A DNA stretch of 61,831 bases from Candidatus Eisenbergiella stercoravium (GTDB taxonomy: Bacteria > Bacillota > Clostridia > Lachnospirales > Lachnospiraceae). Shown piece after piece: positions 1,719 through 58,943 of this stretch. The notes beneath the pieces are model-generated. The model did not search any database, was not told the origin of the DNA, and saw nothing but the letters and a program-made list of their open reading frames with translations. Within the stretch, counting starts at the first letter, position 1; each line of letters starts with the position of its first letter. Position numbers and translations under genes: made by a program. The stretch spans positions 1-61,831 of the forward strand of contig DXHY01000065.1 in assembly GCA_019113175.1 (NCBI GenBank), read 5' to 3'.

Positions 1719-1768
1719 AAATGGCCTCTGCCATTTATTTGGAAGAAATAAATGCCGCCGTCAGCGGC
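1719..1768. repeat. Three-hairpin chain before the GH105 gene
   Basis: Three back-to-back inverted repeats: 1719-1736 (AAATGGC/GCCATTT, 4-nt loop), 1732-1754 (CATTTATTT/AAATAAATG, 5-nt loop) and 1754-1768 (GCCGC/GCGGC). The first two share bases, so they exclude each other. The last ends six bases before the GGAGG of the next gene. Confidence 0.75.
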
Positions 1769-1783
1769 TGATTGGAGGTAGAG

Positions 1784-2881
1784 ATGGAAGAAGTGGTAAG
1801 GAAAAAACTGGATCTTCTGGTCGATGTGTTCGTACCGATTCTGTATGAGGACGATGAACAGTTCATGAAGAACATGAGAGAAAAGAAGCATATTTCCGAA
1901 GCGGAGCTTCAGAAGTACGCCCACTGGGAATGGACGCAGGGCGTTGGCCTGGTGGGTATCTGGAAACTGTTCTCCGGTACGGGAAAAAAGGAATATCTGG
2001 ATATTCTTATAAAATACTACGATAATCAGAAAAAAGTCGGATTCCCGCCTTCCAACGTAAATACCATGGCGCCCTATCTGGTGATGTCTTATCTGGCAGA
2101 GTATCTGAAGAGCGAGGAGTATATGGAACCCTGCCGAGAAGCGGCAGAATGGATCATGCACGAGATGCCGAGAACCGAAGAGGGCGGCATCCAGCATCAG
2201 ACCTCGGATGACTGGAATGAGGGAGAAATCTGGGATGATACCCTGTTCATGACAGTCCTGTTCCTGGCAAACATGGGGCGGATTCTTGACAGAAAGGATT
2301 ATCTGGAGGAGGCGCAGTACCAGTTCCTGCTGCACATGAAATATCTGCAGGATAAGCAGACGGGCTTCTGGTATCATGGATGGACATTCCTGGAGCGCAA
2401 TAACTTTGCCGGTGCCTTCTGGGGCAGAGGAAACTGCTGGATCACCATTGCTATTCCCGAGTTTCTGGATATGCTCAAATGTCCTGAACCGGTGGAACGG
2501 ATCCTGAAGGGAGCGCTGGAAAATCAGGTCAGAGCGCTGGCATCCTGTCAGGCGGAAAACGGCATGTGGCATACCCTGCTGGATGATCCGGATTCCTACG
2601 AGGAGGCGAGCGCAACCTGCGGCTTTGCCTACGGAATTCTCCGCGGCGTTCATGCGGGAATTCTGGACAAAAAGTGGGAGGAAACGGCAAAGAAGGCGCT
2701 TCCGGCCATCCTGTCCCTGATTTCAGATGATGGAGTGGTGGAGCAGGTATCCTACGGTACTCCGATGGGAAGAATTTCAAAGGATTTTTATAAGACGATC
2801 CCGATCCAGCCCATGCCCTACGGGCAGGCGCTTGCGATCCTGTTTTTGGTAGAATGCGGAATGAGAGGCAGCGATGAGTAA
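1784..2881 (+). CDS. GH88/GH105 unsaturated uronyl (rhamnogalacturonyl) hydrolase
   Basis: A 365-residue (alpha/alpha)6-barrel hydrolase resembling YteR. This family removes the 4,5-unsaturated uronic acid left on oligosaccharides by pectate or rhamnogalacturonan lyases. The motif EIWDDTLFMTVLFLANMGR carries the family's catalytic aspartate region; QTGFWYHGW and FWGRGNCWI match the substrate-binding face. There is no signal peptide, so it acts in the cytoplasm on imported oligosaccharides. The frame is open from a TTG at 1772, but GGAGG at 1774-1778 places the true ATG at 1784. Its stop overlaps the alpha-mannosidase gene by eight bases, indicating translational coupling. GH88 versus GH105 cannot be separated by eye. 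Confidence 0.85.
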   Translation: MEEVVRKKLDLLVDVFVPILYEDDEQFMKNMREKKHISEAELQKYAHWEWTQGVGLVGIWKLFSGTGKKEYLDILIKYYDNQKKVGFPPSNVNTMAPYLVMSYLAEYLKSEEYMEPCREAAEWIMHEMPRTEEGGIQHQTSDDWNEGEIWDDTLFMTVLFLANMGRILDRKDYLEEAQYQFLLHMKYLQDKQTGFWYHGWTFLERNNFAGAFWGRGNCWITIAIPEFLDMLKCPEPVERILKGALENQVRALASCQAENGMWHTLLDDPDSYEEASATCGFAYGILRGVHAGILDKKWEETAKKALPAILSLISDDGVVEQVSYGTPMGRISKDFYKTIPIQPMPYGQALAILFLVECGMRGSDE

Positions 2882-5800
2882 TCACAGAATATATCCCGGG
2901 AGACAGTGGAAGGACCGCTTTGCCATGTGGGCGGAGGAGTTTCCCAGACATTACAGAATCCCGGCGGAGGAACTGAAGGTCACAGGATTTTTTACGAAGG
3001 AAAGACTGACGCCGAAGCAGGCGATGGAACGGGCTGAGCGTGAGGCAGAGCCTGTTCCTGCCGGAACGGCCTGGGGAAACTACTGGGAGTATGGCTGGTT
3101 TTTTACGGAATGGACCGTCCCTGAGAAACTGGAGGGAAAACGTCTTGTATTTGTGCCGGGCTTCGGGGAAGAGATGCTTGTCTGGGTGAACGGAGAAGAA
3201 AGCGGCGCTGTGGATAAGAAGCATGCCTGTATTACGCTCACAAAGCAGGCTCAGGCTGGACAGAGCTTCCGGATTATGGCAGAATGCTATGCGGGCCACG
3301 GCCCCAGAATGGAGAGCGGCTGCTTCTGTCGGAAAGGGGAAAAGCCCTTTTCGGATGAAGACGGCCCGCAGCAGCTGACGACACCTTCCCGGGTGGAGAT
3401 ATGGCAGGAGGAAATTTTTCAGACGGCCATGGATTATCTGACCCTGTATTCCTTTCTGTCCCGTCTGCCGGAGGGCTCTCTTCGTGCCATGAAGGTGACG
3501 GAGGGATTGAAGAGGTTCACATATCTTACAGACTTCGAACTTCCAGAGGAGGAGCTTGCGGCTTCTCTTTCCAAAGCGGATGAGGTTTTAAAACCGCTTC
3601 TTGCCTGCACCAACGGCTCCACGGCACCGGAGTTCACCGTTTTCGGCCAGTCCCATCTGGATCTGGCCTGGCTCTGGACCCTGGAGGAAACCAGGCGCAA
3701 GGCGGCGAGAACCTACAGCAATCAGCTGGCGCTGATGGAGGAGTATCCGGACTATCAGTTTCTGCTGTGCGAACCGCCGGTCCTGGAATATCTTAAGGAA
3801 TCCTATCCGGCGCTCTGGGAGCGGGTTAAGGAAAAAGCGGCGGAAGGGAAGATGATTCCGGACGGAGCCTTCTATGTGGAGAGCGATACGAACATGCCCT
3901 GCGGAGAAAGCCTGGTAAGGCAGCTTCTCTATGGAAAGGAATGGTTCCAAAAGGAAATGGGTACCGACAGCCTTGTTGCATGGCTGCCGGACTGCTTCGG
4001 CTTTTCACCCGCTCTGCCGCAGATCCTGGCAAAGAGCAGAGTGCCTTATTTTGCCACTCAGAAACTGATCCGTCAGGATCCGGAATGTGAGCCATTCCCC
4101 TACAATGATTTCTGGTGGCAGGGAATAGATGGAACGAGGATACTCGCACATACCTATAAAGAAAATAATGCTCCCTTTTCCCCCGGAGACATGATCCGGC
4201 GCTGGGAGGATGACAGGGTGCAGGATGAAGGTATAGAGGGCATGATCTATTCCTACGGCTACGGGGACGGCGGCGGCGGCCCTACGAGGGAGCTGGTGGA
4301 GACGGCAGTGCGTTGCAGAGATCTGGAAGGCGCTCCCAGAGCGGTCTTTGAAGGACCGGCCTCCTACTTTGAAAAGCTGAAGAAGCGGGGCTGTGAAAAT
4401 GTTTTCACCGGCGAGCTTTATCTGGCCTGGCACAGGGGTACCTATACAGCCCAGGCAAAGACCAAGCTTGGTGTGCGCCGGGCGGAGTGCCTGCTGAAGG
4501 AGGCGGATTACTGGAACTGCCTGCTTGGCCTTACTGACAGAGCTGATGCCCTGAAGAGGGAAGAGACATTACGGGCGCTCTGGATGCGGCTGCTCTTGCA
4601 GGAATTCCACGATATTCTGCCCGGAACAGGAATTGCCCGTGTGCATGAGGAGGCGGAAAAGGAACTGGCCGCCGTCAGCAGAGAATGCGAAATCCTTCTG
4701 GAGGATATTTTTAACAGCCTGGAGGGGACGGCGGCAGTGAAATCAGAAAAGCCGTCCGGGCAGGGAAAAAGTGCCCTTCCGGAGGAGGCTCTGGCGGAGA
4801 AGGATCAGCAGCGTCTGCGGGACGGAGAGAATTTCCTTCTGAAAAGCACCCGCCTGAGCGTCTGCCTGAATCATGCGGGTCAGGTGGTCAGCCTGCGGGC
4901 CTTCCCGCGGAAGGAAGGAAAGCCCTCGGAAGAAGAGAGCTGGGAAGCCGCGGGAGAGCCCATGAATACCTTCCGGCTGTACCGGAATGTGAATTCCTAT
5001 TATGACGCCTGGGAGATCGGCAGAATGTACGAAAAGGAAGAAGAGCTTCTGGACACGGATGGCTGGAGCATGACGGAGGATGAGTTCGAAGGACGTCCCG
5101 CATGGCGGCTGGAGGGGAAAATTGTTGATTCCCCGCTGTCTCAGCTCATCTGTCTGAGTGAAGACGGATGCATGGTGGAATTCCATACCAGAATCGACTG
5201 GAAGGAACGGCACCGGATGCTGAAGGTGGATTTCCCTTCCTCCGTCCGCTCGGATCATGTGACCGGAGAGGTGGCGTTCGGCGCCTATGCCAGACCCACC
5301 ACCCGTTCCTGGCAGTGGGAGAAGGACCGCTACGAGGTCTGCGGCCATCGCTACAGCGTGCTTGAAGACGGCAGATACGGCATTGAACTGATCAATGACT
5401 GCAAATACGGCTACAGCGCGAAGGAGGACAGAATCAGCCTGACGCTGCTTCGTTCTCCTCTGATGCCGGATATGTATGCGGATCAGGGCATCCAGGAATT
5501 TTCCTACGCCTGCTTCCCCTACGAGGGTTCCTTCCGGGAGCAGGATGCGGCGGGCCGTGCGGAACACTTCAACCTGAATTCCCATATGAGCGCACAGCTT
5601 CGCGTAAGACGCAGACGGCTTGCAAAAGAGATTCCCTCCTTCAGGCTGACGGCCTGGCCGGAGGAAAAGGCGGCCTGTCATGTCCGGATGGAGGCGGTCA
5701 AACTTTCGGAGGATGGAACCGGGAAAACGGTGCTTCATCTGTATGAGGCCGCAGGTGTTCCCCAGCGGATACGCCTTAGGCTGCCGGAGGGAATGGAGAG

Positions 5801-5921: not shown

Positions 5922-5928
5922 TTCAGAT

Positions 5929-6035
5929 GCCGCCTGAACGGCGGCGGAAAGTAGAGGCGGAAGTCGGCGGGGCCGACTTCCTGGAAGAATCCCTGTGGGA
6001 TTCTTCACCAAAATCAAATGCCGCCTGCCGGCGGC
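5929..6035. repeat. Four tandem hairpins before the iron ADH gene
   Basis: Inverted repeats at 5929-5945 (GCCGCC/GGCGGC), 5959-5981 (10-bp stem, GGG loop), 5984-6006 (10-bp stem, TGT loop) and 6020-6035 (GCCGCC/GGCGGC). The outer two are copies of each other, and each is followed by a GGAAA-n-AGAGG or GGAAA-n-GGGG ribosome-site-like tail. The inner two have unrelated stems. Confidence 0.85.
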
Positions 6036-6051
6036 GGAAATAGGGGTAGAT

Positions 6052-7206: not shown

Positions 7207-7275
7207 TGGAACAATCAGGCGGACGGTCTGTCGGAGCGGGCGCTGTAAGACAGGAAAGTGAGTGAGAGTTTTTAG

Positions 7276-7974: not shown

Positions 7975-8010
7975 GCTGCGTTTCAGTCTGTACGCGTTTT
8001 ACAGAAAAAA

Positions 8011-8051
8011 CCGCGGAATGCGGAGAAACAGGAACGAACCCTTAAGTTCGT
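8011..8051. repeat. Two small hairpins in the iolC leader
   Basis: Inverted repeats at 8011-8023 (CCGC/GCGG) and 8034-8051 (ACGAAC/GTTCGT), followed by GAGGAGG and the iolC start. They follow the same hairpin-then-ribosome-site plan as other leaders here. Confidence 0.55.
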
Positions 8052-8070
8052 ATCAGAGGAGGAAGCGGAA

Positions 8071-9087: not shown

Positions 9088-9102
9088 GAAATTGGAGGCT
9101 GT

Positions 9103-11031: not shown

Positions 11032-11057
11032 GATATAAAACGGGAGGATACAAAACA

Positions 11058-12001: not shown

Positions 12002-13015
12002 ATGGTAACAGTAGGAATTATCGGAGCCGGAAGAATCGGCAAGGTGCATACCAGAAGCATCTGCAATTTCGTACATAACGCAAAGCTGAAAACCGTTGCG
12101 GACCCCTTCATGAACGAGGAGACCGAAAAATGGCTGAAAGATATGGGAGTGGAGAATACCACGAAGGATTATCATGATATTCTGAATGATCCCGAGATTC
12201 AGGCAGTTCTGATCTGCTCCTCCACGGATACCCATTCCCCGATTTCCCTGGAAGCGATTGCGGCAGGAAAGCATGTATTCTGCGAAAAGCCGATCGATCA
12301 TGATCTTGGAAGAATCCGTGAGGTGATGAAGGCTCTGGAAGGCAGCAACATCAAATATCAGGTGGGCTTTAACCGCCGTTTTGATCACAACTTCGCAGCT
12401 GTAAAACAGGCGGTTGTGGAGGGCAAAATCGGCGATCCTCATATCATCCGTGTGACCTCCAGAGATCCTGAGCCGCCGAGCCCTGCCTATGTGGCCGTAT
12501 CCGGCGGTCTGTTCCTTGACATGACCATCCACGATTTTGATATGGTGCGTTTCCTGGCAGGCTGTGACGCGGAGGAAATCTATGTACAGTCCGCCGTTCT
12601 TGTGGACCCCGCCATCGGCGAAGCCGGTGATGTGGATACTGCGGTCATCACCCTGAAGATGGCAAACGGTGCCATTGCCGTGATCGACAATTCCAGACGT
12701 GCGGCCTACGGCTATGACCAGAGAGCGGAGGTATTCGGTTCCAGGGGAATGGCGGCAACTTCCAATGATACCGCTTCCAGCCTGGTACTTTCCACCGCTG
12801 ACGGCATTACGGGAGAGAAGCCTCTGTACTTCTTCCTGGAGCGTTATACCGAGTCCTTTGCGAAGGAGATCACCTGCTTCATCGATTCCATTGAGAACGA
12901 TACCCCTACTCTGGTGGGAGCGGAGGACGGCCTGAAGCCTGTCCTGATGGGCATCGCAGCGAAGAAGTCCGTAGAAGAGCATCGTCCGGTGAAGCTGTCC
13001 GAGATCGTATATTAA
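12002..13015 (+). CDS. iolG: myo-Inositol 2-dehydrogenase
   Basis: A 337-residue Gfo/Idh/MocA oxidoreductase that oxidises myo-inositol to 2-keto-myo-inositol with NAD. It has the N-terminal GAGRIGKVHT Rossmann motif, the catalytic CEKP lysine (Lys96), and the Asp173/His177 pair in LDMTIHDFDMVRF, matching the Lys-Asp-His set known for IolG. It is one of four such oxidoreductases in this window and the only one whose context fixes the substrate. AAAGGAG precedes the ATG at 12002. It follows iolE by 44 bases. Confidence 0.92.
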   Translation: MVTVGIIGAGRIGKVHTRSICNFVHNAKLKTVADPFMNEETEKWLKDMGVENTTKDYHDILNDPEIQAVLICSSTDTHSPISLEAIAAGKHVFCEKPIDHDLGRIREVMKALEGSNIKYQVGFNRRFDHNFAAVKQAVVEGKIGDPHIIRVTSRDPEPPSPAYVAVSGGLFLDMTIHDFDMVRFLAGCDAEEIYVQSAVLVDPAIGEAGDVDTAVITLKMANGAIAVIDNSRRAAYGYDQRAEVFGSRGMAATSNDTASSLVLSTADGITGEKPLYFFLERYTESFAKEITCFIDSIENDTPTLVGAEDGLKPVLMGIAAKKSVEEHRPVKLSEIVY

Positions 13016-13027
13016 TTTTGAACGGGG

Positions 13028-13079
13028 CTGTCTGTGCGGGGGCGTCACAGGCAGCTTATGTACAACGGCCCGGCCGTTG
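13028..13079. repeat. Two hairpins in the iolB leader
   Basis: 13063-13079 is a perfect 7-bp inverted repeat (CAACGGC/GCCGTTG) with a CCG loop. 13028-13054 is a longer imperfect pair (CTGTCTGTG/CACAGGCAG). The ribosome site GGAAAGGAG follows. Both fit the recurrent leader plan. Confidence 0.5.
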
Positions 13080-13101
13080 ACGCTCCGGAAAGGAGAGTAT
13101 C

Positions 13102-13875
13102 ATGAGTCAGTTATTCAGTTATCCGGAATTTGATGAAAATGGCGTAAAGATATTGAGCCGTGCGGGAGAGGGAGAAGGCCCGGACGATATGATGATGAAC
13201 ATCACCGTTTACCGCATGAAGGCCGGAGAGGAAAGAAGCTTCTGCCTTCCGCAGGAGGAGATGGCGGTTCTTCTGGTAAAGGGAGACATCACCTTCTGCT
13301 GGAACGGAGAGGAGAAAAGAGGAAAGAGGGACAGCTTCATAGAAGAGGGTCCTTATTGCCTGCATGTGAGCAAAGGCGTTTCCGTGACCGTAAAGGCGGA
13401 AGCGGACAGCGAGGTGCTGGTACAGAGCACTGAGAATGAAAGGGATTTTGCCCCCGTATTCTATACGCCCGCGGACTGCAGAGACGATATCTTCGGCGAC
13501 GGCGTGTGGGATAACAAGATGAAACGCACTGTGCGTACCGTCTTTGACTACAGCAACGCTCCCTATTCCAACATGGTGAACGGGGAGGTTATCAATCATC
13601 AGGGAGGCTGGTCAAGCTATGCGCCGCATCATCATCCGCAGCCTGAGGTTTATTATTACCGCTATGAGCGTCCGGAGGGCTTTGGCGCCTGCTACATCGG
13701 CGATGATGTGTTCCGCATTCAGGATGGAAGCTGCGCCCATATCCGCTGCGGGAAGACACATCCCCAGGTAACGGCGCCCGGCTATCCCATGTACTACTGC
13801 TGGATGATCCGCCATCTGCCGGGTAATCCCTGGACGGATCGGATCGTGGATCCCAGATATGAGTGGATTCAGTAA
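13102..13875 (+). CDS. iolB: 5-deoxy-glucuronate isomerase
   Basis: A 257-residue double-cupin enzyme that converts 5-deoxy-glucuronate to 2-deoxy-5-keto-gluconate, the substrate of IolC. The conserved C-terminal cupin runs through SYAPHHHPQPEVYYYRYERPEGFG and GKTHPQVTAPGYPMYYCWMIRHLP, typical IolB sequence with metal-binding histidines. Length is normal. It ends the catabolic block; the ABC importer genes start about 160 bases downstream and may be a separate unit. A further inositol gene such as iolA, iolJ or iolI is not evident. Confidence 0.94.
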   Translation: MSQLFSYPEFDENGVKILSRAGEGEGPDDMMMNITVYRMKAGEERSFCLPQEEMAVLLVKGDITFCWNGEEKRGKRDSFIEEGPYCLHVSKGVSVTVKAEADSEVLVQSTENERDFAPVFYTPADCRDDIFGDGVWDNKMKRTVRTVFDYSNAPYSNMVNGEVINHQGGWSSYAPHHHPQPEVYYYRYERPEGFGACYIGDDVFRIQDGSCAHIRCGKTHPQVTAPGYPMYYCWMIRHLPGNPWTDRIVDPRYEWIQ

Positions 13876-17778: not shown

Positions 17779-17794
17779 TGCCGCAGGTGCGGCA
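17779..17794. repeat. Leader hairpin before the gene at 17809
   Basis: TGCCGC/GCGGCA with an AGGT loop, four bases before the TTGGAG ribosome site. It belongs to the ATGCCGCC-like leader hairpin group also seen near 1754, 5929, 6020, 20626, 25105, 25263, 33271 and 33378. Confidence 0.65.
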
Positions 17795-23574: not shown

Positions 23575-25086
23575 TTACAGGGTCACGCCCTGTTTGAAGA
23601 TCGCCATATCATGGAAGCCTGCCGCCTCCGATTTTACCTGCTCCCCGTTCGCAACGCGGAGTACGTAGTCGAACAGCTGCTGCGAAAGCTCGGAGAGGGA
23701 TGTACCCTCCAGCAGTGTGCCACAGTTGAAGTCGATCCAGTTTTTCTTTTTCTCATAAAGAGGCGTGTTACTGGAAATTTTCACTGTGGGGACCGGGGAG
23801 GCAAAGGGTGTTCCCCGTCCGGTGGTGAACAGGACGATCTGTGCGCCCGATGCAGCCAGGGCGGTAGAGGCCACCAGATCGTTGCCGGGAGCGGACAGCA
23901 GGTTCAGACCGTGGCTTTTCACAGGCTCTCCATAGGAAAGCACGCCTTTCACCGGAGCGGAGCCGGATTTCTGGGTGCAGCCGAGGGACTTGTCCTCCAG
24001 AGTGGAGATGCCGCCCTTCTTATTGCCGGGCGACGGATTCTCATAGATGCTCTGGCCGTGAGAGGTAAAATAATTTTTGAAATCGTTGATCAGCTTCACA
24101 GTCTGATCGAACAGCTCCTCGTTTTCACAGCGGTTCATGAGAAGGGTTTCCGCGCCGAACATTTCAGGAACTTCGGTCAGGATGGTGGTGCCGCCCTTAC
24201 TGATGAGAAGATCGGAAAAACCGCCCACTGTGGGATTCGCCGTGATGCCGGAAAGACCGTCGGAGCCGCCGCATTTCATACCGATGACCAGCTCGCTGCA
24301 GGAGATGGGCTCCCGCTTCGCTTTCCCGGCATATTCTGCCAGAGAATGGAGGATGGACACACCTTCTTCGATCTCATCTTCGCATTCCTGTGCCACCAGA
24401 AAACGGATTCGTTCGGGATCGTAGTCGCCGATATATTTTTTCAGCTCGCCGATATTGCTGTTCTCACAGCCGAGTCCCAGCACCAGCACGCCTCCCGCAT
24501 TGGGGTGATGGATCAGGTCGGCGAGGATCTGCCGCGTATTGTCCTGATCCTCCCCCATCTGGGAGCAGCCATAAGGGTGGGAGAAGGAGACAACGGCGTC
24601 GATGCTGCCCGTGACCAGATCCTGAGCCCGTTTCGCAATTGCTGCGGCAACATCGTTCACGCAGCCCACCGTGGGGATGATCCACAGCTCGTTGCGCACG
24701 CCAGCCTTTCCGTCTGAACGGCGATAGCCCTGGAAAAAAGCTTCTCCGGTGGCAGCCACCGACGGATGGGTGGGATGATAGGTATAGGAAAGTACCCCGT
24801 CCAGCGCAGTTTTCAGATTATGGGTATGTACGTGCGCGCCCTGCGGGATATCCGCGCAGGCAGTTCCGATGGGTTCTCCGTATTTGATGACGGGGGAACC
24901 GGCCGGGATATCCGCAAGGGCGAACTTATGCCCGGCGGGGATATCCTCCTTCAGAAGAAAACCGGGTTCCCCGTCGGTTTCGCTTGCCTGACCGGGATTG
25001 CTTTCGGAAATCCATGTCCCGGCTGACAGCGGCTGAAGCGCTACGGCAACGCTGTCCTTCGGATGGATTCGGATGCAGGTCTGCAT
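23575..25086 (-). CDS. uxaA: Altronate dehydratase
   Basis: A 503-residue enzyme that dehydrates D-altronate to 2-keto-3-deoxygluconate. It has the N-terminal SAF-like small domain (residues 1-100, ending PAGSPVIKYGEPIGTA) and the large domain with SHPYGCSQMGEDQDNTR, LVLGLGCEN and GMKCGGSDGLSGITANP, carrying the Fe/Mn-binding cysteines and acidic residues of UxaA. It is first gene of the uxaA-uxaB unit, with a -35/-10 pair at 25153-25181 and an operator palindrome at 25135-25150 that would cover the transcription start. A CTGCCGC/GCGGCAG hairpin lies in its leader. Confidence 0.94.
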   Translation of the reverse strand: MQTCIRIHPKDSVAVALQPLSAGTWISESNPGQASETDGEPGFLLKEDIPAGHKFALADIPAGSPVIKYGEPIGTACADIPQGAHVHTHNLKTALDGVLSYTYHPTHPSVAATGEAFFQGYRRSDGKAGVRNELWIIPTVGCVNDVAAAIAKRAQDLVTGSIDAVVSFSHPYGCSQMGEDQDNTRQILADLIHHPNAGGVLVLGLGCENSNIGELKKYIGDYDPERIRFLVAQECEDEIEEGVSILHSLAEYAGKAKREPISCSELVIGMKCGGSDGLSGITANPTVGGFSDLLISKGGTTILTEVPEMFGAETLLMNRCENEELFDQTVKLINDFKNYFTSHGQSIYENPSPGNKKGGISTLEDKSLGCTQKSGSAPVKGVLSYGEPVKSHGLNLLSAPGNDLVASTALAASGAQIVLFTTGRGTPFASPVPTVKISSNTPLYEKKKNWIDFNCGTLLEGTSLSELSQQLFDYVLRVANGEQVKSEAAGFHDMAIFKQGVTL

Positions 25087-25104: not shown

Positions 25105-25122
25105 CTGCCGCGACAGCGGCAG
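25105..25122. repeat. uxaA leader hairpin
   Basis: A perfect 7-bp inverted repeat (CTGCCGC/GCGGCAG) with a GACA loop. On the minus strand it stands just before the AGAGG ribosome site of uxaA. Confidence 0.65.
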
Positions 25123-25262: not shown

Positions 25263-25277
25263 GCCGCCCAAAGCGGC
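25263..25277. repeat. uxaC leader hairpin
   Basis: GCCGC/GCGGC with a five-base loop, followed by AGAAAGCAGGGG and the uxaC ATG. Same leader hairpin group as on the uxaA side. Confidence 0.6.
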
Positions 25278-33223: not shown

Positions 33224-33236
33224 AACAGAAAAGGGA

Positions 33237-33393
33237 AAGAATGGCTAACGCCATTCTTCCATGAGTTCAATGCCGCCTGTCGGCAGCGCACGAACTAAAG
33301 ATTCGTGCTGAAAGGAGAGGGGCACGAACTGCGTTCGTGCCAAAGAATGGCTGACGCCATTCTTTCATGAATTCAATGCCGCCTGTCGGCGGC
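33237..33393. repeat. Six tandem hairpins before the 33408 operon
   Basis: Inverted repeats at 33237-33258 (9-bp stem, TAAC), 33271-33285 (TGCCG/CGGCA), 33288-33308 (GCACGAA/TTCGTGC), 33321-33341 (9-bp stem, TGC), 33342-33365 (10-bp stem, TGAC) and 33378-33393 (GCCGCC/GGCGGC). The AAGAATGGC hairpin plus the adjoining GCCGCCTG hairpin is present twice, as a duplicated module flanking two GCACGAA hairpins. The last one abuts GGAAGGAGAGG. Confidence 0.9.
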
Positions 33394-33407
33394 GGAAGGA
33401 GAGGTAT

Positions 33408-34184
33408 ATGAAAACAGGAGCACAGCTTTACACGATCAGGGCCTATACGCAGACGGAGAGGGATTTTGCGCGGTCGATGAAGAAAATTGCAGATATGGGC
33501 TACACCACCGTGCAGGTTTCCGCGATCGGAAAGGATATCCGCCCGGAGAGGGTGCGCGAGATCTGCGATGAAAACGGACTGAAGATCGTGCTGACACACA
33601 GCGACGTAAACCGGATCTTAAACGATACGGACAGGCTCATCGAGGAGCATAACATTCTGGGCTGCGACCACATCGGACTTGGCGCAATGCCGGAAAAATA
33701 CCGCTCGCCGGAGTGGATCCGCTATTTTGTGGAGGATTTTAAGGAGCCTGCAAAGAAAATCGCGGCTGCGGGAAAACGGTTTATGTACCATAATCATAAT
33801 TTTGAATTTCAGAAAATTTCCATTCCGGGCTATGAGAAGCCGGTCCGGATCATCGAATATCTGATGGACAGTTTTACGCCAGAGGAGCTGGGCTTTACGC
33901 TGGATACCTACTGGGTGGCCGCAGCGGGCGGAGATGTGTGCGACTGGATCGCGAAGCTTTCCGGAAGGATTCCCTGTGTGCACCTGAAGGATATGGCAGT
34001 TGAAGATTTCCAGTCAGTGATGGCGCCGGTGATGGAAGGAAACCTGAACTTCTCCGCCATTCTCAGCCTGCTGGAAAAGACGGACTGCGAATACCTGCTG
34101 GTAGAGCAGGATACCTGCCAGGGCAGCCCCTTCGACTGCCTGAAGACGAGCTATGACAATCTGGCCGCGGCCGGATACCGCTGA
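33408..34184 (+). CDS. Sugar-phosphate isomerase/epimerase-like TIM-barrel protein
   Basis: A 258-residue TIM-barrel enzyme of the xylose-isomerase-like/AP-endonuclease-2 superfamily. Probable metal ligands are in FMYHNHNFEF, LDTYWVAAAGGD, CVHLKDM and LLVEQD, the usual E/D/H/E positions. Members isomerise, epimerise or dehydrate keto-sugars; the substrate here is unknown. It starts a four-gene operon with two Gfo/Idh/MocA oxidoreductases and a second TIM-barrel protein, behind an AraC-controlled promoter. GGAGAGG precedes the ATG at seven bases. Confidence 0.88.
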   Translation: MKTGAQLYTIRAYTQTERDFARSMKKIADMGYTTVQVSAIGKDIRPERVREICDENGLKIVLTHSDVNRILNDTDRLIEEHNILGCDHIGLGAMPEKYRSPEWIRYFVEDFKEPAKKIAAAGKRFMYHNHNFEFQKISIPGYEKPVRIIEYLMDSFTPEELGFTLDTYWVAAAGGDVCDWIAKLSGRIPCVHLKDMAVEDFQSVMAPVMEGNLNFSAILSLLEKTDCEYLLVEQDTCQGSPFDCLKTSYDNLAAAGYR

Positions 34185-41311: not shown

Positions 41312-42390
41312 TGTCCACAAGAAGTATTGTCCCGTTCGGACCGCAGCATCCGGTGCTGCCGGAGCCGATTCATCTGGATCTGGTTCTGGAGGATGAAAAG
41401 GTGGTGGAAGCGGTGCCCTCCATCGGTTTCGTGCACAGGGGACTGGAAAAGCTGGTTGAAAAAAAGGAATTTACAGAATACGTTTACGTGGCGGAGCGAA
41501 TCTGCGGCATCTGCAGCTTCATGCACGGCATGGGCTACTGCGAGGCGGTGGAGCACATCATGAACATTGAAATTCCGCCCCGGGCAAGATATCTGCGTAC
41601 CATCTGGTGTGAGATGAGCCGGATTCACAGCCACCTGCTCTGGCTGGGGCTTCTGGCAGACGCGTTCGGCTTTGAAAGCCTGTTCATGCAGTCCTGGAGA
41701 ATCCGGGAAAAGGTGCTTGACATGTTCGAGGCATCCACCGGAGGCAGAGTTATTTTTTCCGTGAATAAAATCGGCGGACAGAGAAAGGACATGGACGCTT
41801 CCATGCTCCGCCAGTTTGTGGCCAATTTCCAGGATATGGAAAAGGAGCTGAAGGAGCTGACGAAGACCTTCCTGAACGATTCCGCGGTGAACAGCAGGCT
41901 GCGCGGTGTGGGACTCCTGACGAAGCAGCAGGCCCATGACCTGGGCGCTGTGGGCCCTTTCATGCGGGCCAGCGGTATTGCGCTGGATAACCGGAAGCTG
42001 GGCTATGCGGCCTATTCCGATCTGAATTTTGAGCCTGTGACCAGCGAGGTGGGAGACTGCTACGCCAGATGCGATGTGCGCATCCGGGAGATTTTCCAGT
42101 CCATTGATCTGATCCGTCAGGCGGCATCCAAAATCCCCGGAGGAGATGTGGCCGTTCCCTTCAAGGGCTTCCCGGAGGGAGAATATTTCATGCGGGAGGA
42201 ACAGCCGAGAGGTGAGGCGATCTATTACGTGAAGGCGAACGGAACCAAATTTATCGACCGCTTCCGCGTCCGTACCCCTACCTTCGCCAACCTCCCGGCC
42301 CTGATCCAGACGTTGAAGGGCTGTCAGCTGGCCGATGTGCCGATCATGATTCTGACCATTGATCCCTGCATCAGCTGTACGGAGAGATAG
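41311..42390 (+). CDS. echE: Ech hydrogenase large subunit ([NiFe] catalytic, NuoD-like)
   Basis: A 359-residue group 4 [NiFe]-hydrogenase large subunit; it reduces protons to H2 with electrons from ferredoxin. The four Ni-Fe ligands are present: Cys65 and Cys68 in ERICGIC, and Cys353 and Cys356 in DPCISC. These distinguish it from NuoD of complex I, which lacks them. The protein ends three residues after the last ligand (TER), so there is no C-terminal extension to cleave, as known for EchE and CooH, and no maturation-protease gene is found nearby. Confidence 0.95.
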   Translation: MSTRSIVPFGPQHPVLPEPIHLDLVLEDEKVVEAVPSIGFVHRGLEKLVEKKEFTEYVYVAERICGICSFMHGMGYCEAVEHIMNIEIPPRARYLRTIWCEMSRIHSHLLWLGLLADAFGFESLFMQSWRIREKVLDMFEASTGGRVIFSVNKIGGQRKDMDASMLRQFVANFQDMEKELKELTKTFLNDSAVNSRLRGVGLLTKQQAHDLGAVGPFMRASGIALDNRKLGYAAYSDLNFEPVTSEVGDCYARCDVRIREIFQSIDLIRQAASKIPGGDVAVPFKGFPEGEYFMREEQPRGEAIYYVKANGTKFIDRFRVRTPTFANLPALIQTLKGCQLADVPIMILTIDPCISCTER

Positions 42391-42400
42391 AAGGAGGACA

Positions 42401-42534
42401 GATTGAGAAATGCGCTCGATAGCGCATTTCTCAATCGGCAGTTTTGCGTCGGAGCGCCGCAAAACTGCTGTGATCGCAGCGAAAAAATCACATGCGCGAT
42501 TTTTTCGCGCGGTCGGAGCAAAGGGCGCTCCGAC
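42401..42534. repeat. Four tandem hairpins between echE and echF
   Basis: Perfect inverted repeats at 42401-42436 (16-bp stem, CGAT loop), 42438-42468 (11 bp, 9-nt loop), 42479-42508 (11 bp, 8-nt loop) and 42512-42534 (8 bp, 7-nt loop). Twelve bases across the second hairpin's loop (42447-42458) are also perfectly complementary to 42524-42535 in the fourth, so an alternative long-range fold exists. The fourth abuts GTGGAGG, the echF ribosome site. Confidence 0.92.
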
Positions 42535-42546
42535 GTGGAGGTAACC

Positions 42547-43113
42547 ATGAAAAACATGCGGACCATGAGATTTACCCGGACGGCGCTGAAGAATCTGTTC
42601 AGCCCGCCCGTTACCCGGCCCTATCCGGAACAGCCGAGGGAGTATCCGGAGCGGACGAGGGGCCATGTGGAAATCGATATAGATACCTGTATTCTCTGCG
42701 GGCTGTGTTCCAGAAAATGTCCCACCGGGGCGATTACCGTAAACCGGGCGGAGAAAACCTGGAAAATCGAGCGCTTCGGCTGCATTCAGTGCGGCTGCTG
42801 CGTGGAAACCTGCCCGAAGAAGTGCCTGACCATGAAGAACGCTTATACCCAGCCGGGAGCGGAAAAGGTTTCGGATACCTTCCTGAAAACCAATATGCCC
42901 GCTCCGGCGGCAAAGCCTGCCGCAAAGCCACAGGAGGCGGGAACGGTTGCAAAGCCCGCCGGGCAGGCCGCTGCAAAGCCTGGCGTACAGGCGGAAAAGC
43001 CGAAGGGTGAGGAAGCGGAAGCGCCGGCACAGACGGCAAAGCCGGCAGCGCCGGTTCAGCCTTCCGGTGCTGCCCTGAAGACGGCGGCTGCCGACGGAAA
43101 GACAGAAGCATGA
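42547..43113 (+). CDS. echF: Ech hydrogenase ferredoxin-type subunit with Ala/Lys/Pro-rich tail
   Basis: A 188-residue protein with two [4Fe-4S] motifs, CILCGLCSRKCP and CIQCGCCVETCPKKC, in residues 45-95. It hands electrons from ferredoxin to EchC. Residues ~115-188 are a low-complexity Ala/Lys/Pro/Glu tail (AKPAAKP, AKPAGQ), absent from ordinary EchF and probably disordered. An open frame extends upstream through the hairpins to 42403, but GGAGG and ATG at 42547 give the expected start (MKNMRTMRFTRTALKNLF). The stop overlaps hypF (ATGA). Confidence 0.9.
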   Translation: MKNMRTMRFTRTALKNLFSPPVTRPYPEQPREYPERTRGHVEIDIDTCILCGLCSRKCPTGAITVNRAEKTWKIERFGCIQCGCCVETCPKKCLTMKNAYTQPGAEKVSDTFLKTNMPAPAAKPAAKPQEAGTVAKPAGQAAAKPGVQAEKPKGEEAEAPAQTAKPAAPVQPSGAALKTAAADGKTEA

Positions 43114-45955: not shown

Positions 45956-45962
45956 GCCCGGA

Positions 45963-48949: not shown

Positions 48950-49097
48950 GCAGCGGGCTGGAAATTTGGAGGGAAGGGTGTATAATAGGGGTGTCATCCT
49001 CATCCAGGAGGACATGTAAAAGCGTAGAGAATAAATGCAAATTTCATTTTTTTCAACTGGACAAACCGGAAATTTGTGGAGTTATTGCAGGATAATG

Positions 49098-49125
49098 GTT
49101 GTAAAACAGCGCTGCGTTTTACAAC
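49098..49125. repeat. hypC leader hairpin
   Basis: A perfect 10-bp inverted repeat (GTTGTAAAAC/GTTTTACAAC) with an eight-base loop, itself containing the CAGCGCTG palindrome, followed by TATGGAGG and the hypC start. Confidence 0.75.
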
Positions 49126-49145
49126 GCTTCGGTATGGAGGTAAAT

Positions 49146-49376
49146 ATGTGCGTTGCATTACCCGGAAGGGTTTTGACAGTAAATGACAGTAAGGCTGTGG
49201 TCGATTTTCAGGGAAACCAGGTCACCGCAGAAGCAGGCCTCGTAAAAGTGAAGCCCGGCGACCGGGTTCTGGTTCATGCGGGCTGCATCCTGCAGGTGCT
49301 TTCCGAGGAGGAGGGCGACCGGATGCAGGAGCTGTTTGACGAGCTGGAGGAGGTCATGGCGGATGAAAATCCTTGA
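49146..49376 (+). CDS. hypC: Hydrogenase maturation chaperone HypC
   Basis: A 76-residue HypC/HupF protein. It begins MCVALPGRV, with the essential Cys2 that holds the Fe(CN)2CO unit together with HypD. The small beta-barrel core (AVVDFQGNQ, VKPGDRVLVHAGCILQVL) and acidic C-terminal helix are normal. GGAGG precedes the ATG. It overlaps hypD by 14 bases. Starts the hypCDE unit, which has its own leader, separated from ech-hypF by 3.2 kb of opposite-strand and decayed genes. Confidence 0.95.
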   Translation: MCVALPGRVLTVNDSKAVVDFQGNQVTAEAGLVKVKPGDRVLVHAGCILQVLSEEEGDRMQELFDELEEVMADENP

Positions 49377-50469: not shown

Positions 50470-50502
50470 ATTGGTCAGGAATTGGGAAAGGAAGAAAAGA
50501 AA

Positions 50503-51489: not shown

Positions 51490-51523
51490 GAAATACAGCG
51501 GATCAGAACAAAAAATAAGTCCC

Positions 51524-51551
51524 TTGCAAACCCCACCCGTTTTGCTATAAT
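51524..51551 (+). promoter_or_regulatory. Promoter of the GH28-GH2 operon
   Basis: TTGCAA (51524-51529), 16-bp spacer and perfect TATAAT (51546-51551). Confidence 0.75.
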
Positions 51552-51563
51552 AAGCGAAAAAGA

Positions 51564-51585
51564 CTGATGTAAGTCCTTACATCAG
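51564..51585. promoter_or_regulatory. LacI-type operator at the GH28-GH2 promoter
   Basis: A perfect palindrome of ten plus ten bases around TC (CTGATGTAAG-TC-CTTACATCAG). It is the best of three matching sites; the others control uxaA and uxaC. It lies at about +6 to +27 of the transcript, so binding would repress. Confidence 0.85.
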
Positions 51586-51642
51586 CCGATGCGGTCATTT
51601 CCGGGCCGCAACACAATAATTTTTACGGAGGGAAAAGAGGAC

Positions 51643-53154: not shown

Positions 53155-53167
53155 AGGGGAAAAGAGC

Positions 53168-55702: not shown

Positions 55703-55766
55703 GCGGACGGGCAGCGATCCGGGCTTCGGATACCGGTGGTTTCAGGTGCTGATGTCCGCCGGCTTA

Positions 55767-55797
55767 CAAGTGCCGGTCACACGCTGACCGGCACTTG
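55767..55797 (+). terminator. Hairpin after the GH2 gene
   Basis: A perfect 13-bp stem (CAAGTGCCGGTCA and complement) with a five-base loop. There is no T-run, so termination is likely but not certain. 55703-56008 has no gene. Confidence 0.6.
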
Positions 55798-55837
55798 CCT
55801 GAATCCGATCCGCCTGAATCCGGTCCGAAAAAATCGA

Positions 55838-55866
55838 TTGACATTTCAGCCTTCTTTGTTTATGAT
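55838..55866 (+). promoter_or_regulatory. Promoter of the intact Rpn gene
   Basis: TTGACA (55838-55843), 17-bp spacer and TATGAT (55861-55866). A CGGCAGGC/GCCTGCCG hairpin lies in the leader at 55961-55988, just before AAAGGGAGG. Confidence 0.8.
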
Positions 55867-56008
55867 GATTCCATCAACAACATATCTGACGATCTGCGTT
55901 ATTCTTTTGGCGAGTCTGCCGTATTTACACAGAGGTTGGAAAACAACAGAAAAAGGAAAACGGCAGGCCGGTTTTTGTATGCCTGCCGGGAAAGGGAGGC
56001 TGTAGAAA

Positions 56009-57013
56009 TTGGGTGAAAAGAATGATGCCATTCTGCGTTATCTGGAGGACATTGCCCGGTTCGCCGATCTGATGAACGGCGCTGTGTTCGGCGGCATTCA
56101 GGCGGTGGATCCGGGACAGCTTGAGGACGCGTCGGAGCACTATACTGAAAGGGACGGAAAGGGGCGGAATATAAAATACCACGGCCGTACCCGTGATATC
56201 ATCCGACGGGTCAGAAACGGAGAAAGCATTCTGAGGCTGGTGGCGCTGGAAGCGCAGGAAACGGTGGATTACGGAATGCCGCTTCGCTGCATGAACTATG
56301 ACGTGCAGGAATATCTGCGCCAGACGAGGGCGATTCAGAAGGAGAATGAGAAGGCGGGGAACTACCGGAACGCCTCAGAGCGGCTTGGGAGGATGCGGAA
56401 CATGGACCGTCTGATCCCCGTTTATACCGTATGTCTGTATCACGGAACCGATCCCTGGGACGGTCCCCTGCATCTGAGCGACATGATGCGTTTTGAAAAA
56501 GGGGATGCCTTCCGTGGACTATTCTGCGATTATCCGATGATCCTGATCCGGGCGGATGAGCCGATGGATTATGGGGCATTCCGGACTTCCCTGAGAGAAC
56601 TGCTTGCGGTGCTTCCCTTCCGGAAGGACCGAAGGGAGATGAGAAAGTTTATCGGAGAGCAGGAGGCGTACCGGAAACTGGACAGGGACACGCTGGAGGC
56701 GATAGCGGTGATGACGGACAACAGGCAGCTTCTGGAGAAGGCGGAGGACTACCGGAACGAGAAAGGGGAATACAATATGTATGAGGAAATGGGCAGCTTT
56801 TTTATGGACGGGGTAGAAGAAGGACGCGAGGAAGGAAGGGAAGAAGGAAGAGAAGAAGGAATCCGGGCGATGATTCTGGACAATCTGGAAAACGGAGGCA
56901 GCCGGGAGCAGATACAGAAAAAACTGGAAAAGTACTTTGGAATGTCGGAAAAAAGGGCGGCAGAATATCTGGAGCATTTTTTACAGGAAATTGGATGCCT
57001 GTCCGCAATTTAG
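56009..57013 (+). CDS. Rpn-family recombination-promoting nuclease/putative transposase
   Basis: A 334-residue protein of the Rpn/PD-(D/E)XK family, proteins related to transposases and shown in E. coli to have DNA endonuclease activity that promotes recombination. Blocks include FADLMNGAVFGGIQAVDP, LRLVALEAQETVDYGMPLR (core region), RLIPVYTVCLYHGTDPWDGP and AIAVMTDNRQLLEKAEDY. An EEGREEGREEG coiled repeat and a C-terminal three-helix end follow. TTG at 56009 with GGGAGG nine bases upstream is the likely start, conserved in the decayed copy at 48723. It is the only full copy among four relatives here. Confidence 0.88.
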   Translation: MGEKNDAILRYLEDIARFADLMNGAVFGGIQAVDPGQLEDASEHYTERDGKGRNIKYHGRTRDIIRRVRNGESILRLVALEAQETVDYGMPLRCMNYDVQEYLRQTRAIQKENEKAGNYRNASERLGRMRNMDRLIPVYTVCLYHGTDPWDGPLHLSDMMRFEKGDAFRGLFCDYPMILIRADEPMDYGAFRTSLRELLAVLPFRKDRREMRKFIGEQEAYRKLDRDTLEAIAVMTDNRQLLEKAEDYRNEKGEYNMYEEMGSFFMDGVEEGREEGREEGREEGIRAMILDNLENGGSREQIQKKLEKYFGMSEKRAAEYLEHFLQEIGCLSAI

Positions 57014-57124
57014 GGTTCCTTCGCTTGCTGCTGTCCACTGGCTTTCCGGCAGGATTGACAGGTCTGCAGAACCGGCATGCCTTGCCGGAACCGGATTCCT
57101 GTGATATGATGGAGCAGATCGATG

Positions 57125-57175
57125 ATCCGCTGCAGAGATGAGACCTGAAGGGGGTTGTTTCTGCAGCGGATTTTT
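57125..57175 (+). terminator. Terminator of the Rpn gene
   Basis: A 12-bp stem (ATCCGCTGCAGA/TCTGCAGCGGAT) followed by TTTTT. Confidence 0.88.
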
Positions 57176-57179
57176 CATA

Positions 57180-57308
57180 TGACAGGAAAGTTCCTTTCCT
57201 GTCACATGAAAACTTCGATTACACTGTGGCGGAATGGAAGATGTCGCTTACGCGACCCGCCATGCAGGCAATCTTCGATTGCCGGTAGAATCCCGCAGAG
57301 GGGATTCT
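57180..57308. repeat. Four tandem hairpins before the sirtuin-like gene
   Basis: Inverted repeats at 57180-57204 (11-bp stem, TTC loop), 57243-57256 (GTCGC/GCGAC, TTAC loop, with an outer GGCGG/CCGCC pair), 57267-57283 (GGCAATC/GATTGCC, TTC loop) and 57287-57308 (AGAATCCC/GGGATTCT), followed by a T-rich run. With the terminator they fill 57014-57348, which has no gene. Confidence 0.88.
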
Positions 57309-57348
57309 TTTTCAAAATTTCCAATACGGGAAACGGAGAGGAGTACAG

Positions 57349-58116
57349 ATGACGAAGGAAATTCGGGAAAAAATCGCGGATGCGCAGATGGTCCTCGTGG
57401 GGATCGGAAAGGAACTGGAAGAAAAATATCACGGGATGGAGCAGGATGCCGGATATATGCGGCTGCGGGCTCAGGCGGAAGAAGGAGAACAGGCGGATGT
57501 CCTGGAGCAGTATCTCCGGCTCGCCTGGCTGAAGGACCATCCGGATGACCGTAAAAAACAGGCCTATCAGGCGCTGGCTGACCTGCTTTCCGGGAAAAAC
57601 TATTTTCTTGTCACCCTCTGTACAGACGACGCCGTATTTGGAACCGGACTGGACGAGGGACGGATTGTGGCCCCCTGCGGCAGCTTCAGAAGACTTCAGT
57701 GTGCGGAAAGCAATGAAATTTACTCCGATTCCGACCTCTGGGAAAAGCCGGTAGAACAGATTCGGGGAGGAGCGCCTCTTTCGGATATCGAATTTCCCCG
57801 CTGTCCCGCATGCGGCCGCCTGCTCGCCTTCAATCAGATCACTACGCCCGGTTATCTGGAGGAAGGGTATCTGCCTCAGTGGGAAAAATATCAGAAGTGG
57901 CTGCAGGGGACGCTGAATCACAGGCTCTGCATTCTGGAGCTGGGAGCGGGGGTGGAATATCCTTCCGTAATCCGTTTCCCTTTTGAGCGTGTAGCGTTTT
58001 TCAATCAGAAGTCGGAACTGATCCGGGTGCACAGCAGACTGTACCAGATGACGGCTGAACTGAAGGACAGAGGCACGCCCATTCAGGCGGATCCGGTGGA
58101 TTTTCTGCTGGAATAA
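57349..58116 (+). CDS. SIR2-superfamily-like protein, degenerate NAD-binding motif
   Basis: A 255-residue protein resembling the SirTM branch of sirtuins (NAD-dependent ADP-ribosyl or deacyl transferases). KNYFLVTLCTDDAVFGTGLD aligns with the YFVLTTNVD segment, GSFRRLQCAE and CPACGRLLAFNQ give zinc-ligand-like cysteines, and LELGAGVEYPSVIRFPFERVAF matches the last Rossmann strand. The N-terminal glycine-rich GAG-x-S loop is replaced by VLVGIGKELEEKY, and no macro-domain or lipoylation partner is adjacent. It may be an inactive or re-purposed sirtuin. GGAGAGGAG precedes the ATG. Confidence 0.65.
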   Translation: MTKEIREKIADAQMVLVGIGKELEEKYHGMEQDAGYMRLRAQAEEGEQADVLEQYLRLAWLKDHPDDRKKQAYQALADLLSGKNYFLVTLCTDDAVFGTGLDEGRIVAPCGSFRRLQCAESNEIYSDSDLWEKPVEQIRGGAPLSDIEFPRCPACGRLLAFNQITTPGYLEEGYLPQWEKYQKWLQGTLNHRLCILELGAGVEYPSVIRFPFERVAFFNQKSELIRVHSRLYQMTAELKDRGTPIQADPVDFLLE

Positions 58117-58138
58117 AAATGCCGGAGAAATGCGGCGC

Positions 58139-58167
58139 TTGCGTTCTGACAGTGGATATGCTATACT
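58139..58167 (+). promoter_or_regulatory. Promoter of hisH-hisF
   Basis: TTGCGT (58139-58144), 17-bp spacer and TATACT (58162-58167). Confidence 0.65.
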
Positions 58168-58208
58168 GCGTTAATGAGATAAAGTAAAAACTGGAAAGGA
58201 ATACACGG

Positions 58209-58814
58209 ATGATAGCAATCATCGATTATGATGCGGGAAACATAAAAAGCGTGGAAAAGGCGGTTCATTATTTGGGAAAGAAAGCTGTGGTCACCTCCGA
58301 TCCAAACGAGATTCTGTCCGCAGACCGGGTGATTCTGCCCGGAGTGGGAGCCTTCGGGGACGCGATGAAGCGGCTTCATGACCTGGGGCTGGTGGATGTG
58401 ATCCGCAGAGCGGTACAGCAGGAAACGCCCTTCCTCGGCATCTGTCTGGGACTGCAGCTTTTGTTTGAAAAAAGTGAAGAGAGTCCGGGAGTTGCAGGTC
58501 TGGGTCTGCTGCGGGGAGAAATCCTACGCCTTCCGGACATCCCCGGCCTGAAGGTTCCTCATATTGGCTGGAACTCCCTGAAATACCCCAATCCGGGCAG
58601 GCTGTTTCGCGGCATCCCGGAGGATTCCTATGTGTATTTTGTCCACTCCTACTATCTGAAGGCACAGGATGAGGGAATTGTAACGGCCACGACGGAGTAC
58701 GGCATACTGGTGCATGCCTCCATAGAGAGCGGAAATCTGTTTGCCTGTCAGTTCCATCCGGAGAAGAGCTCTGAAACGGGCCTGACGATTCTTGAAAACT
58801 TTCTTTCCATATAA
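58209..58814 (+). CDS. hisH: Imidazole glycerol phosphate synthase, glutaminase subunit
   Basis: A 201-residue class I glutamine amidotransferase that supplies ammonia to HisF in histidine synthesis. The catalytic triad is Cys79 (GICLGLQLL), His183 and Glu185 (FHPEKSS); the oxyanion-loop PGVGAFGDAM is present. It has its own promoter and a GGAAAGGA site. hisF follows after 133 bases filled by four hairpins. Other his genes are not in the window. Confidence 0.96.
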   Translation: MIAIIDYDAGNIKSVEKAVHYLGKKAVVTSDPNEILSADRVILPGVGAFGDAMKRLHDLGLVDVIRRAVQQETPFLGICLGLQLLFEKSEESPGVAGLGLLRGEILRLPDIPGLKVPHIGWNSLKYPNPGRLFRGIPEDSYVYFVHSYYLKAQDEGIVTATTEYGILVHASIESGNLFACQFHPEKSSETGLTILENFLSI

Positions 58815-58824
58815 AAATAGAAGA

Positions 58825-58943
58825 GCTGTCCTGCGGACAGCGGAAACAGAGGCGGATGAAACCTGCAGGGTTTCATCCTGAGAATTGGCCAGTGGGCCAA
58901 TTCCTTTGATAAAAAGCTGTCCTGCGGACAGCGGAAACAGAGG
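58825..58943. repeat. Four tandem hairpins between hisH and hisF with duplicated leader module
   Basis: Inverted repeats at 58825-58841 and 58916-58932 (both GCTGTCC/GGACAGC, TGC loop), 58854-58878 (10-bp stem, five-base loop) and 58882-58903 (GAATTGGCC/GGCCAATTC, AGTG loop). The outer hairpin plus its GGAAACAGAGG tail is an exact 28-bp duplication (58825-58852 and 58916-58943); the second copy supplies the hisF ribosome site. Confidence 0.93.

Follow-up and report, generated by a model that had tools for sequence, protein, structure and literature searches.

The BOX, RUP and SPRITE repeats of Streptococcus pneumoniae are described as short, high-copy and RNA-structured, BOX being modular, and they are thought to be non-autonomous mobile elements (PMC3049150). 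In Table 1 of that paper they are over-represented between convergent genes, and such gaps are presented there as the places where the repeats cause least harm (PMC3049150). REPINs are short palindromic non-autonomous elements, for which movement in trans by a single-copy RAYT was proposed (PMC3116915). No passage on ribosomes, Shine-Dalgarno (SD) sequences or start codons was found in a review on prokaryotic MITEs (PMC10969869). No description of SD-docked elements was found in a narrow search of the open-access literature, and with such coverage the absence is weak evidence of novelty.

The window is the whole stretch of 61,831 nucleotides analysed here, which is part of contig C85 in a genome of 4.10 Mb and 89 contigs (G000). 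Hairpins were located where a first-pass annotation of the window had placed them, and they exceeded dinucleotide shuffles in the gaps between genes. Judged from the sequence, they belong to a class of leader elements that is real, abundant, structured and mobile-looking. The high-copy families occupied the most sensitive non-coding place, the bases before start codons, including those of housekeeping genes. The HisF protein of G000 was 96% identical to HisF of Candidatus Eisenbergiella intestinipullorum, and the named relatives were Lachnospiraceae.

Hairpin density upstream of genes

A home-made codon model served for gene calling in the window and 20 stretches of G000. The latter sum to 352 kb and lie mostly at contig starts, a location that may be enriched in repeats. 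Perfect hairpins (stem of at least 7, loop of 3-10) were counted with dinucleotide shuffles as the control. The window held 18 hairpins in same-strand gaps (1.85 in shuffles), 9 in divergent gaps (0.95), 4 in convergent gaps (0.95) and 18 in coding sequence (19). The corresponding numbers of the 352-kb sample were 86 (13.5), 27 (4.85), 12 (7.0) and 173 (131). The excess was about 6-10-fold in gaps 5' of genes in the window and the sample, weak in convergent gaps, and absent or little in coding sequence. The first-pass annotation had set an equal density in shuffled or intragenic sequence as its refuting test; the gap density was matched in neither shuffled nor coding sequence, and a chance origin of the hairpins was ruled out by these two controls.

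A descriptor of three ordered hairpins gave 12 sense matches, in which the last hairpin ended 12-18 nt 5' of a called start codon, and no match in three one-strand shuffles. Its remaining matches were such units read on the reverse strand, units further upstream in a chain, copies of type B and a small number of unrelated places. With stems of at least 8 bp, 70 hairpins were found in 35.2 kb of G000 leaders (6.0 in shuffles) and 94 in 95.6 kb of leaders of other Lachnospiraceae (67 of 80 loci; 18.2 in shuffles), which is about half the density. The start-proximal hairpin was usually of 5-7 bp, and only 4 of the 70 upstream hairpins with stems of at least 8 bp were 30 nt or less from a start on their own strand. 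At least five T within 9 nt after the hairpin were observed in 7/70 cases in G000 and 36/94 in other Lachnospiraceae, and from the G000 count intrinsic terminators were rejected as the general identity, with type C as the exception. Thus the earlier statement that the hairpins are not terminators stood for most of them and failed at 57180, which ends in a T-rich terminator-like hairpin.

Architecture of the element families

The stems had been called sequence-unrelated in the first-pass annotation, but most sites fell into recurrent families, A, B and C, with covarying stems (Table 1). There are at least two families (A and B), and probably three with C. Covariance models were built from the hand-picked alignments, R1 for type B and R2 for type A.

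Table 1. Leader elements and related features of the window
Feature	Position	Strand	Score or remark
Degenerate type A 5' of GH88 gene	1693..1786	+	R2 31.2 bits, E 4.6e-5
Type A, left H1 of direct repeat	5929..5945	+	
Type A unit: H2, H3, spacer, H1, SD, Fe-ADH start codon	5959..6054	+	R2 58.6 bits
Unclassified weak 6-bp hairpin (8011 in the first-pass annotation) 5' of PfkB-family gene	8034..8051	+	
Degenerate type B relic 5' of KduI-family gene	12996..13104	+	R1 31.4 bits, E 2.3e-6
Solitary H1 5' of SD	17779..17794	+	
Solitary H1, leader of gene 23575-25086	25105..25122	-	sequence
Solitary H1 5' of uxaC	25263..25277	+	
Type A, upstream unit of two-unit chain	33226..33307	+	R2 36.5 bits
Type A, downstream unit, start codon 33408	33321..33410	+	R2 89.6 bits
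Pre-existing SD (AGAAGGAGGACA) directly 5' of type B copy	42389..42400	+	single GGAGG in empty G002, G008
Type B including start codon: HB1 16 bp, HB2 11 bp, HB3 11 bp; pseudoknot of HB2 loop with pre-SD stretch; own SD GGAGG; ATG 42547	42401..42549	+	R1 179.8 bits; about 85-95% identity to dispersed copies
10-bp hairpin, then type B 3' end motif CGCTTCGGTATGGAGGTAAAT-ATG	49098..49148	+	motif scan
Type C element, approximate ends, T-rich terminal hairpin	57172..57320	+	start codon about 30-40 nt 3'
Type A, left H1 of 28-nt exact direct repeat (H1 + GGAAACAGAGG)	58825..58841	+	repeated 5' of hisF start
Type A unit 5' of hisF	58854..58950	+	R2 36.7 bits

Type A is a unit of about 90 nt, composed of H2 (often GGCACGAACC...GGTTCGTGCC), H3 (AAAGAATGGC...GCCATTCTTT), about 12 nt of spacer, H1 (GCCGCC...GGCGGC) and a tail of purines that contains the SD and is followed by the start codon; one to three consecutive units form a chain. 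The unit at the Fe-ADH gene had dozens of dispersed blastn matches. The repeat of type A (H1+SD) is locus-specific, while the part in between (H2-H3) recurs at different loci, by which a CRISPR array was rejected, as had been judged before.

Type B is an element of about 150 nt with three hairpins, HB1 (GATTGAAAAATAAGCC...), HB2 (GCAGTTTTGCG...) and HB3 (GCGAAAAAATC...), and a covarying pseudoknot which ends just 5' of its own SD. Its 3' part is CGCTYCGR, complementary to the HB2 loop, followed by ATGGAGG and the start codon. The site at 49098 shares with type B only the 3' end motif and was not among the R1 matches listed. For terminal inverted repeats, the first 35 nt and the last 37 nt before the SD were compared, and 10 of 10 type B copies scored no higher than shuffled sequence.

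Covariation was scored on hand-picked alignments, in which related rows can inflate the scores; slid controls were far lower every time. Eight copies of type A gave 99.0% paired cells and 6 two-sided pairs, and further pair types were not above shuffles (279/500), H1 being invariant in that set. Twelve copies of type B gave 96.2% paired cells and 16 two-sided pairs, neither reached by any of 500 shuffles, and here also the count of further pair types was not above shuffles (97/500). An alignment of the window copy with 15 copies from other genera, one per genome, had two-sided changes in 26 of the 45 pairs; for the pseudoknot alone it was 5 of 9 with 94.4% paired cells, the loop/arm pair changing from CCGGAGCG/CGCTCCGG to CTGAGCGA/TCGCTCAG. 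For type B, the covarying helices and the pseudoknot bear out a common RNA structure, one of the two possibilities raised at first.

Type C does not abut the SD, unlike A and B, so the earlier description of a last hairpin adjoining the SD did not apply at 57180. Two other type C copies were observed in G000 (L303 and L006), and the element was absent from the matching site of G008. The sites at 17779 and 25263 are one H1 hairpin each; the G003 orthologue of the 17779 site carried a type-B-like 3' half. The site at 25105 is a single hairpin on the minus strand.

Position, copy number and orthologous sites

Both A and B lay in sense orientation 5' of the start codons of unrelated genes. Among 53 of 74 type B matches (21 were dropped as duplicate places, cut 3' ends, or weak or antisense), the 3' end coincided with the start codon of an open frame in 44, was 1-5 nt off in 5 and had no frame in 4; frames counted from 60 codons, or when they ran open to the locus end. 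The R1 model itself ends in ATG, which favours such agreement. By model-independent gene calls in the window and the sample, 20 of 28 sense matches ended exactly on the start and 2 within 3 nt; the others were three upstream chain units, one contig end and two conflicts with the gene caller, and four further R1 matches were antisense readings. Same-strand upstream genes ended as close as 9-11 nt before type B, so type B occurs within operons.

Of 19 type B loci in other genera, 16 were read, the other three being short. Type B started there after an SD-like run, and the copy ended at the model end in ATG in 14 of the 16 and in GTG in one, with ATG 5 nt further on in the last. An in-frame ATG also occurs 12 nt upstream, within the SD stretch (..ATGGAGG..), and in 12 of the 16 copies it was the first one that the script encountered; thus the exact start in other genera is a choice based on SD spacing.

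The proteins encoded downstream (10 in the window, 10 after B, 10 after A or A-like elements) had no common theme. They included GH88, Fe-ADH, HisF, UxaC, NAD-dependent DNA ligase, V/A-type ATP synthase, a Mur ligase, a LysR regulator, GalT, AraA, topoisomerase I, FabD- and FabH-like enzymes and tRNA m1G methyltransferase. Several of these genes are essential in model bacteria. In addition, the trigger-factor leader (L017, 12629) looked A-like by eye, and it was not among the R2 matches listed. Rfam 15 gave no match at the gathering score over the window, with sub-threshold matches only for 42380-42560 and 33230-33415. Since the downstream genes differ and no Rfam family matched at this score, a gene-specific riboswitch was rejected.

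When leaders were folded without pseudoknots, the SD had an unpaired probability of 0.50 in type B against 0.34 with shuffled upstream sequence (higher in 23/36, p=0.0016) and of 0.48 against 0.35 in type A (17/26, p=0.007), a modest gain of exposure. We infer from these models that the element may fold on itself and hand a free SD to the gene.

For the genus genomes G000-G012 in order, R1 matches numbered at least 101, 130, 102, 46, 0, 51, 1, 144, 79, 39, 15, 43 and 1, and R2 matches at least 120, 50, 78, 51, 2, 71, 1, 11, 107, 62, 8, 39 and 1, with at most 150 candidates of each genome scored and antisense and partial matches counted; the 120 of G000 are matches at E <= 0.001, antisense included. 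Thus A and B were abundant in most genomes of the genus and nearly absent from G004, G006 and G012. At E <= 0.01, G000 had 108 R1 matches, 86 of them covering the whole model; 13 were HB1 alone, mostly a reverse reading of listed copies. At 53 bits or more there were 66 distinct places, four of which were cut by contig ends, and 7 of the 89 contigs started inside a type B copy or at most 3 nt from one. In the family, R1 matches were present in 44 of 299 genomes (E <= 1e-4; at most 10 candidates scored in each, many genomes having all 10) and R2 matches, under stricter filters, in 5 of 299, two of this genus and three others with one match each. Type B is therefore widespread and patchy, and type A as modelled is essentially genus-bound. 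Among type B copies preceding unrelated genes the closest had an identity of about 85-98%, with 97.9% for two complete copies from different loci, and the mean of 30 G000 copies was 80%.

Filled and empty sites were found at orthologous leaders, their gain or loss polarity being read with few outgroups. The type B copy at 42401 was missing from G002 and G008, meanwhile G001, G005, G009 and G011 had an H1-like hairpin. In the 33408 leader two A units of the window corresponded to H1 plus B in G002 and to an empty site in G005. In the uxaC leader (25294) the window had H1 only, and G008 had two H1+SD copies with type A inserted between them. No element was present in the 9103 leader of the window, where G003 had two A units and G005 one; the 6052 leader carried A in the window and G003 and none in G005. 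Among the window, G008 and G002, the 53168 leader had type B in G002 only, and the element before the GH88 gene (1693) was lacking in G003 and G005. At hisF, the 28-nt H1+SD was exactly duplicated around H2-H3 in the window, single in G008, G011 and G005, and absent in G001 and G003. The comparison of orthologous leaders, which the first-pass annotation had proposed for sister strains, revealed that most chains were not common to orthologous genes of sister species at the leaders compared, which goes against its second refuting test, the conservation of each chain across distant species. B copies common to orthologous genes of two species also existed (L173/L175, L193/L194 and L205/L186), which also fits retention for function.

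The left flank of type B resembled the SD region at the right end of the same copy more closely than those of different copies, with a same-locus score of 6.23 against 4.44 +/- 0.23 when permuted (n=64; 48 genus copies and 16 others, after dropping copies cut by contig ends and one weak match). In the genus alone it was 6.51 against 4.96 +/- 0.25, and none of 5000 permutations reached either score. For type A, with one terminal unit per place from 88 R2 matches, the score was 20.97 against 12.39 +/- 0.51 (n=44), the copy's own right end being ranked first for just 20 of the 44. The flanking direct repeats consisted of the SD region of the locus itself and measured about 5-9 nt for B and, where present, about 29-34 nt (H1+SD) for A; several of the 44 A copies, e.g. 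L011, L021, L285 and one of L286, were without any repeat. Tandem duplication or homogenisation of neighbouring units is another possible source of the type A repeats. By eye, about 10 of the 64 type B left flanks were similar to the terminal part of a different B copy, which suggests chain growth on the 3' side.

Origin of the elements and comparison with known systems

From these sequence comparisons, A and B are probably non-autonomous miniature mobile elements which insert in sense orientation between the SD and the start codon. The spread of mobile palindromes into leaders, the other possibility raised at first, was well supported by the dispersal of copies over unrelated genes, by orthologous sites with and without an element, by the direct repeats at the flanks and by near-identical copies from separate loci. 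Insertion would duplicate the target SD, as the direct repeats suggest; the new 3' copy would then serve the gene while the old SD would stay upstream. The element would fold on itself and leave the SD free, so that insertion would be nearly neutral for translation, and near-neutrality could have allowed the spread even into operons and into leaders whose genes are essential elsewhere among bacteria. An element arriving later would insert 3' of the newest SD and build the hairpin chains, and the mobilising enzyme would act in trans. Occurrence in leaders only may come partly from selection rather than targeting.

A global cis-regulatory RNA is an unlikely alternative, in which a protein, the ribosome or a metabolite would bind A and B, whose copies would have been kept for shared translational control. 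The strong covariation, including a pseudoknot directly 5' of the SD, the position fixed to the start codon and the preservation of certain copies across species are in its favour, but orthologous genes mostly do not share an element at the leaders compared, the scanned downstream genes are themeless with housekeeping genes among them, and R1 matches range from 0 to 144 within one genus. Local evolution without mobility, by tandem duplication, template switching or quasipalindrome correction with selection for mRNA stability or insulation, has a low probability. Long direct repeats of type A, multi-unit chains and arms which remain perfect despite sequence drift could be produced in this way; however, the closest copies of the 150-nt B, in front of unrelated genes, are about 85-98% identical, cleanly empty counterparts of its sites exist, and blastn placed type A at dozens of dispersed loci. 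For type B this explanation is already largely refuted.

RNA-mediated copying by a reverse transcriptase (RT) in trans, similar to SINEs, would account for the orientation in sense, the structured RNA and the location in leaders, and seems highly improbable. Conservation is on the RNA-sense strand, and one kind of RT gene was present in seven of the eight type-A-rich genomes of the genus (two matches in G011), the eighth, G003 (77% complete), having an RT fragment only, while no RT of such size and score was listed for G004, G006, G007, G010 and G012 (by protein query for G010 only). However, this is a retron RT (PADLOC RT_Ec107-like, E 1.3e-128), and by eye 4 of the 7 genus loci read had a structured region of the RT's own, unrelated to A and B, upstream of the gene. 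The distribution of the RT is confounded by clade, and in the family 6 of 28 RT-positive genomes were among the 44 B-positive ones, where about 4 were expected by chance. The retron RT was rejected as the mover, the genus pattern being suggestive and the family-wide search unsupportive. Identity of A or B with a retron ncRNA was rejected too, since both are dispersed genome-wide and the retron loci read, by eye, had neither as their ncRNA.

An IS200/Y1 transposase was rejected as the mover because Y1 (PF01797) had no match in G000 (95% complete); matches existed in 6 of 13 genus genomes. Neither a transposase nor an integrase was found to be linked with A or B, and no transposition event, circular form or excision was seen. 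The multi-copy gene at 56009-57013, considered as a candidate mover, had no Pfam match and a weak, sub-cut-off match to the Rpn "recombination-promoting nuclease" family. Among possible carriers, phages and plasmids gave no match for type B and phages none for type A, and two exact type B patterns were not found in the viral contigs of IMG/VR.

Beyond mobility as such, a family-wide mobile class targeting the SD is put forward tentatively, at less than even chances. Its pseudoknotted RNA would insert between SD and start codon, duplicate the SD and rewire the leader with the gene still translated, possibly through a mechanism that reads the translation start or the fold of the leader RNA; serial docking would give the tandem-hairpin leaders, and initiation regions would be the main habitat. 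If confirmed, such elements would be harmless by bringing their own ribosome-binding site, would be a source of rapid leader turnover between gut-bacterial species and of natural RNA insulators for genetic design, and would point to a new integration enzyme.

RiboJ-type insulators contain an engineered ribozyme, a self-folding RNA directly 5' of the ribosome-binding site. Unlike these, A and B are natural and mobile-looking, and insulation by them is inferred only. Like prokaryotic MITEs, they are small, non-coding and probably non-autonomous, with many dispersed copies and, in the sets compared, direct-repeat flanks; unlike MITEs, type B has no terminal inverted repeats, the repeats of A are about 30 nt and the presumed target is the SD. 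Like BOX, RUP and SPRITE as described in the cited work, A and B are short, high-copy, structured and dispersed, whereas they lie upstream of genes, locked to the SD and start codon, and carry the gene's SD. Compared with REPINs as proposed in the cited work, they are not inverted REP pairs and occur at SDs with direct repeats, in a genome (G000) without a Y1 match. A and B thus resemble BOX, RUP, REPINs and MITEs, and differ from them in presumed target, position, pseudoknot and proposed SD duplication.

Further hairpin elements in gene leaders

At five loci (L195, L203, L177, L171 and L186), sense and antisense matches of the covariance model built from type B copies overlapped or neighboured each other, and these pairs are palindromic readings or oppositely oriented copies. 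The third repeated leader element, type C, had a T-rich terminal hairpin and was absent from the matching site of relative G008. A terminator-like perfect hairpin, CAAGTGCCGGTCA...TGACCGGCACTTG, was also present, with a close variant at another gene in relative G001. The hisF leaders of two Lachnospiraceae MAGs (L025 and L027) carried other chains of hairpins, in which the final hairpin was followed by GATGGGAG and then the start codon; these chains possibly represent additional families of like kind.

Coordinates of the features
Feature	Position	Other occurrences
Type C element	window 57172-57320	L303; L006 (minus strand)
Terminator-like perfect hairpin	window 55767-55797	G001 leader orthologous to 58209
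334-aa gene	window 56009-57013	
Ec107-like retron RT	L311 3138-4175 (G000:C88:53140-54174)	

Retron RT and a multi-copy gene

A stand-alone Ec107-like retron RT was found in seven genomes of the genus (L311-L317), often close to a dapDH-like gene; a structured GGCGAGTCGCC-type region lay upstream at four of the seven loci, and was also seen in relatives from other genera. DNA 86-88% identical to the 334-aa gene lay at two further places in its own genome, and sister genomes contained related copies; the product of the gene weakly resembled Rpn recombination-promoting nucleases.
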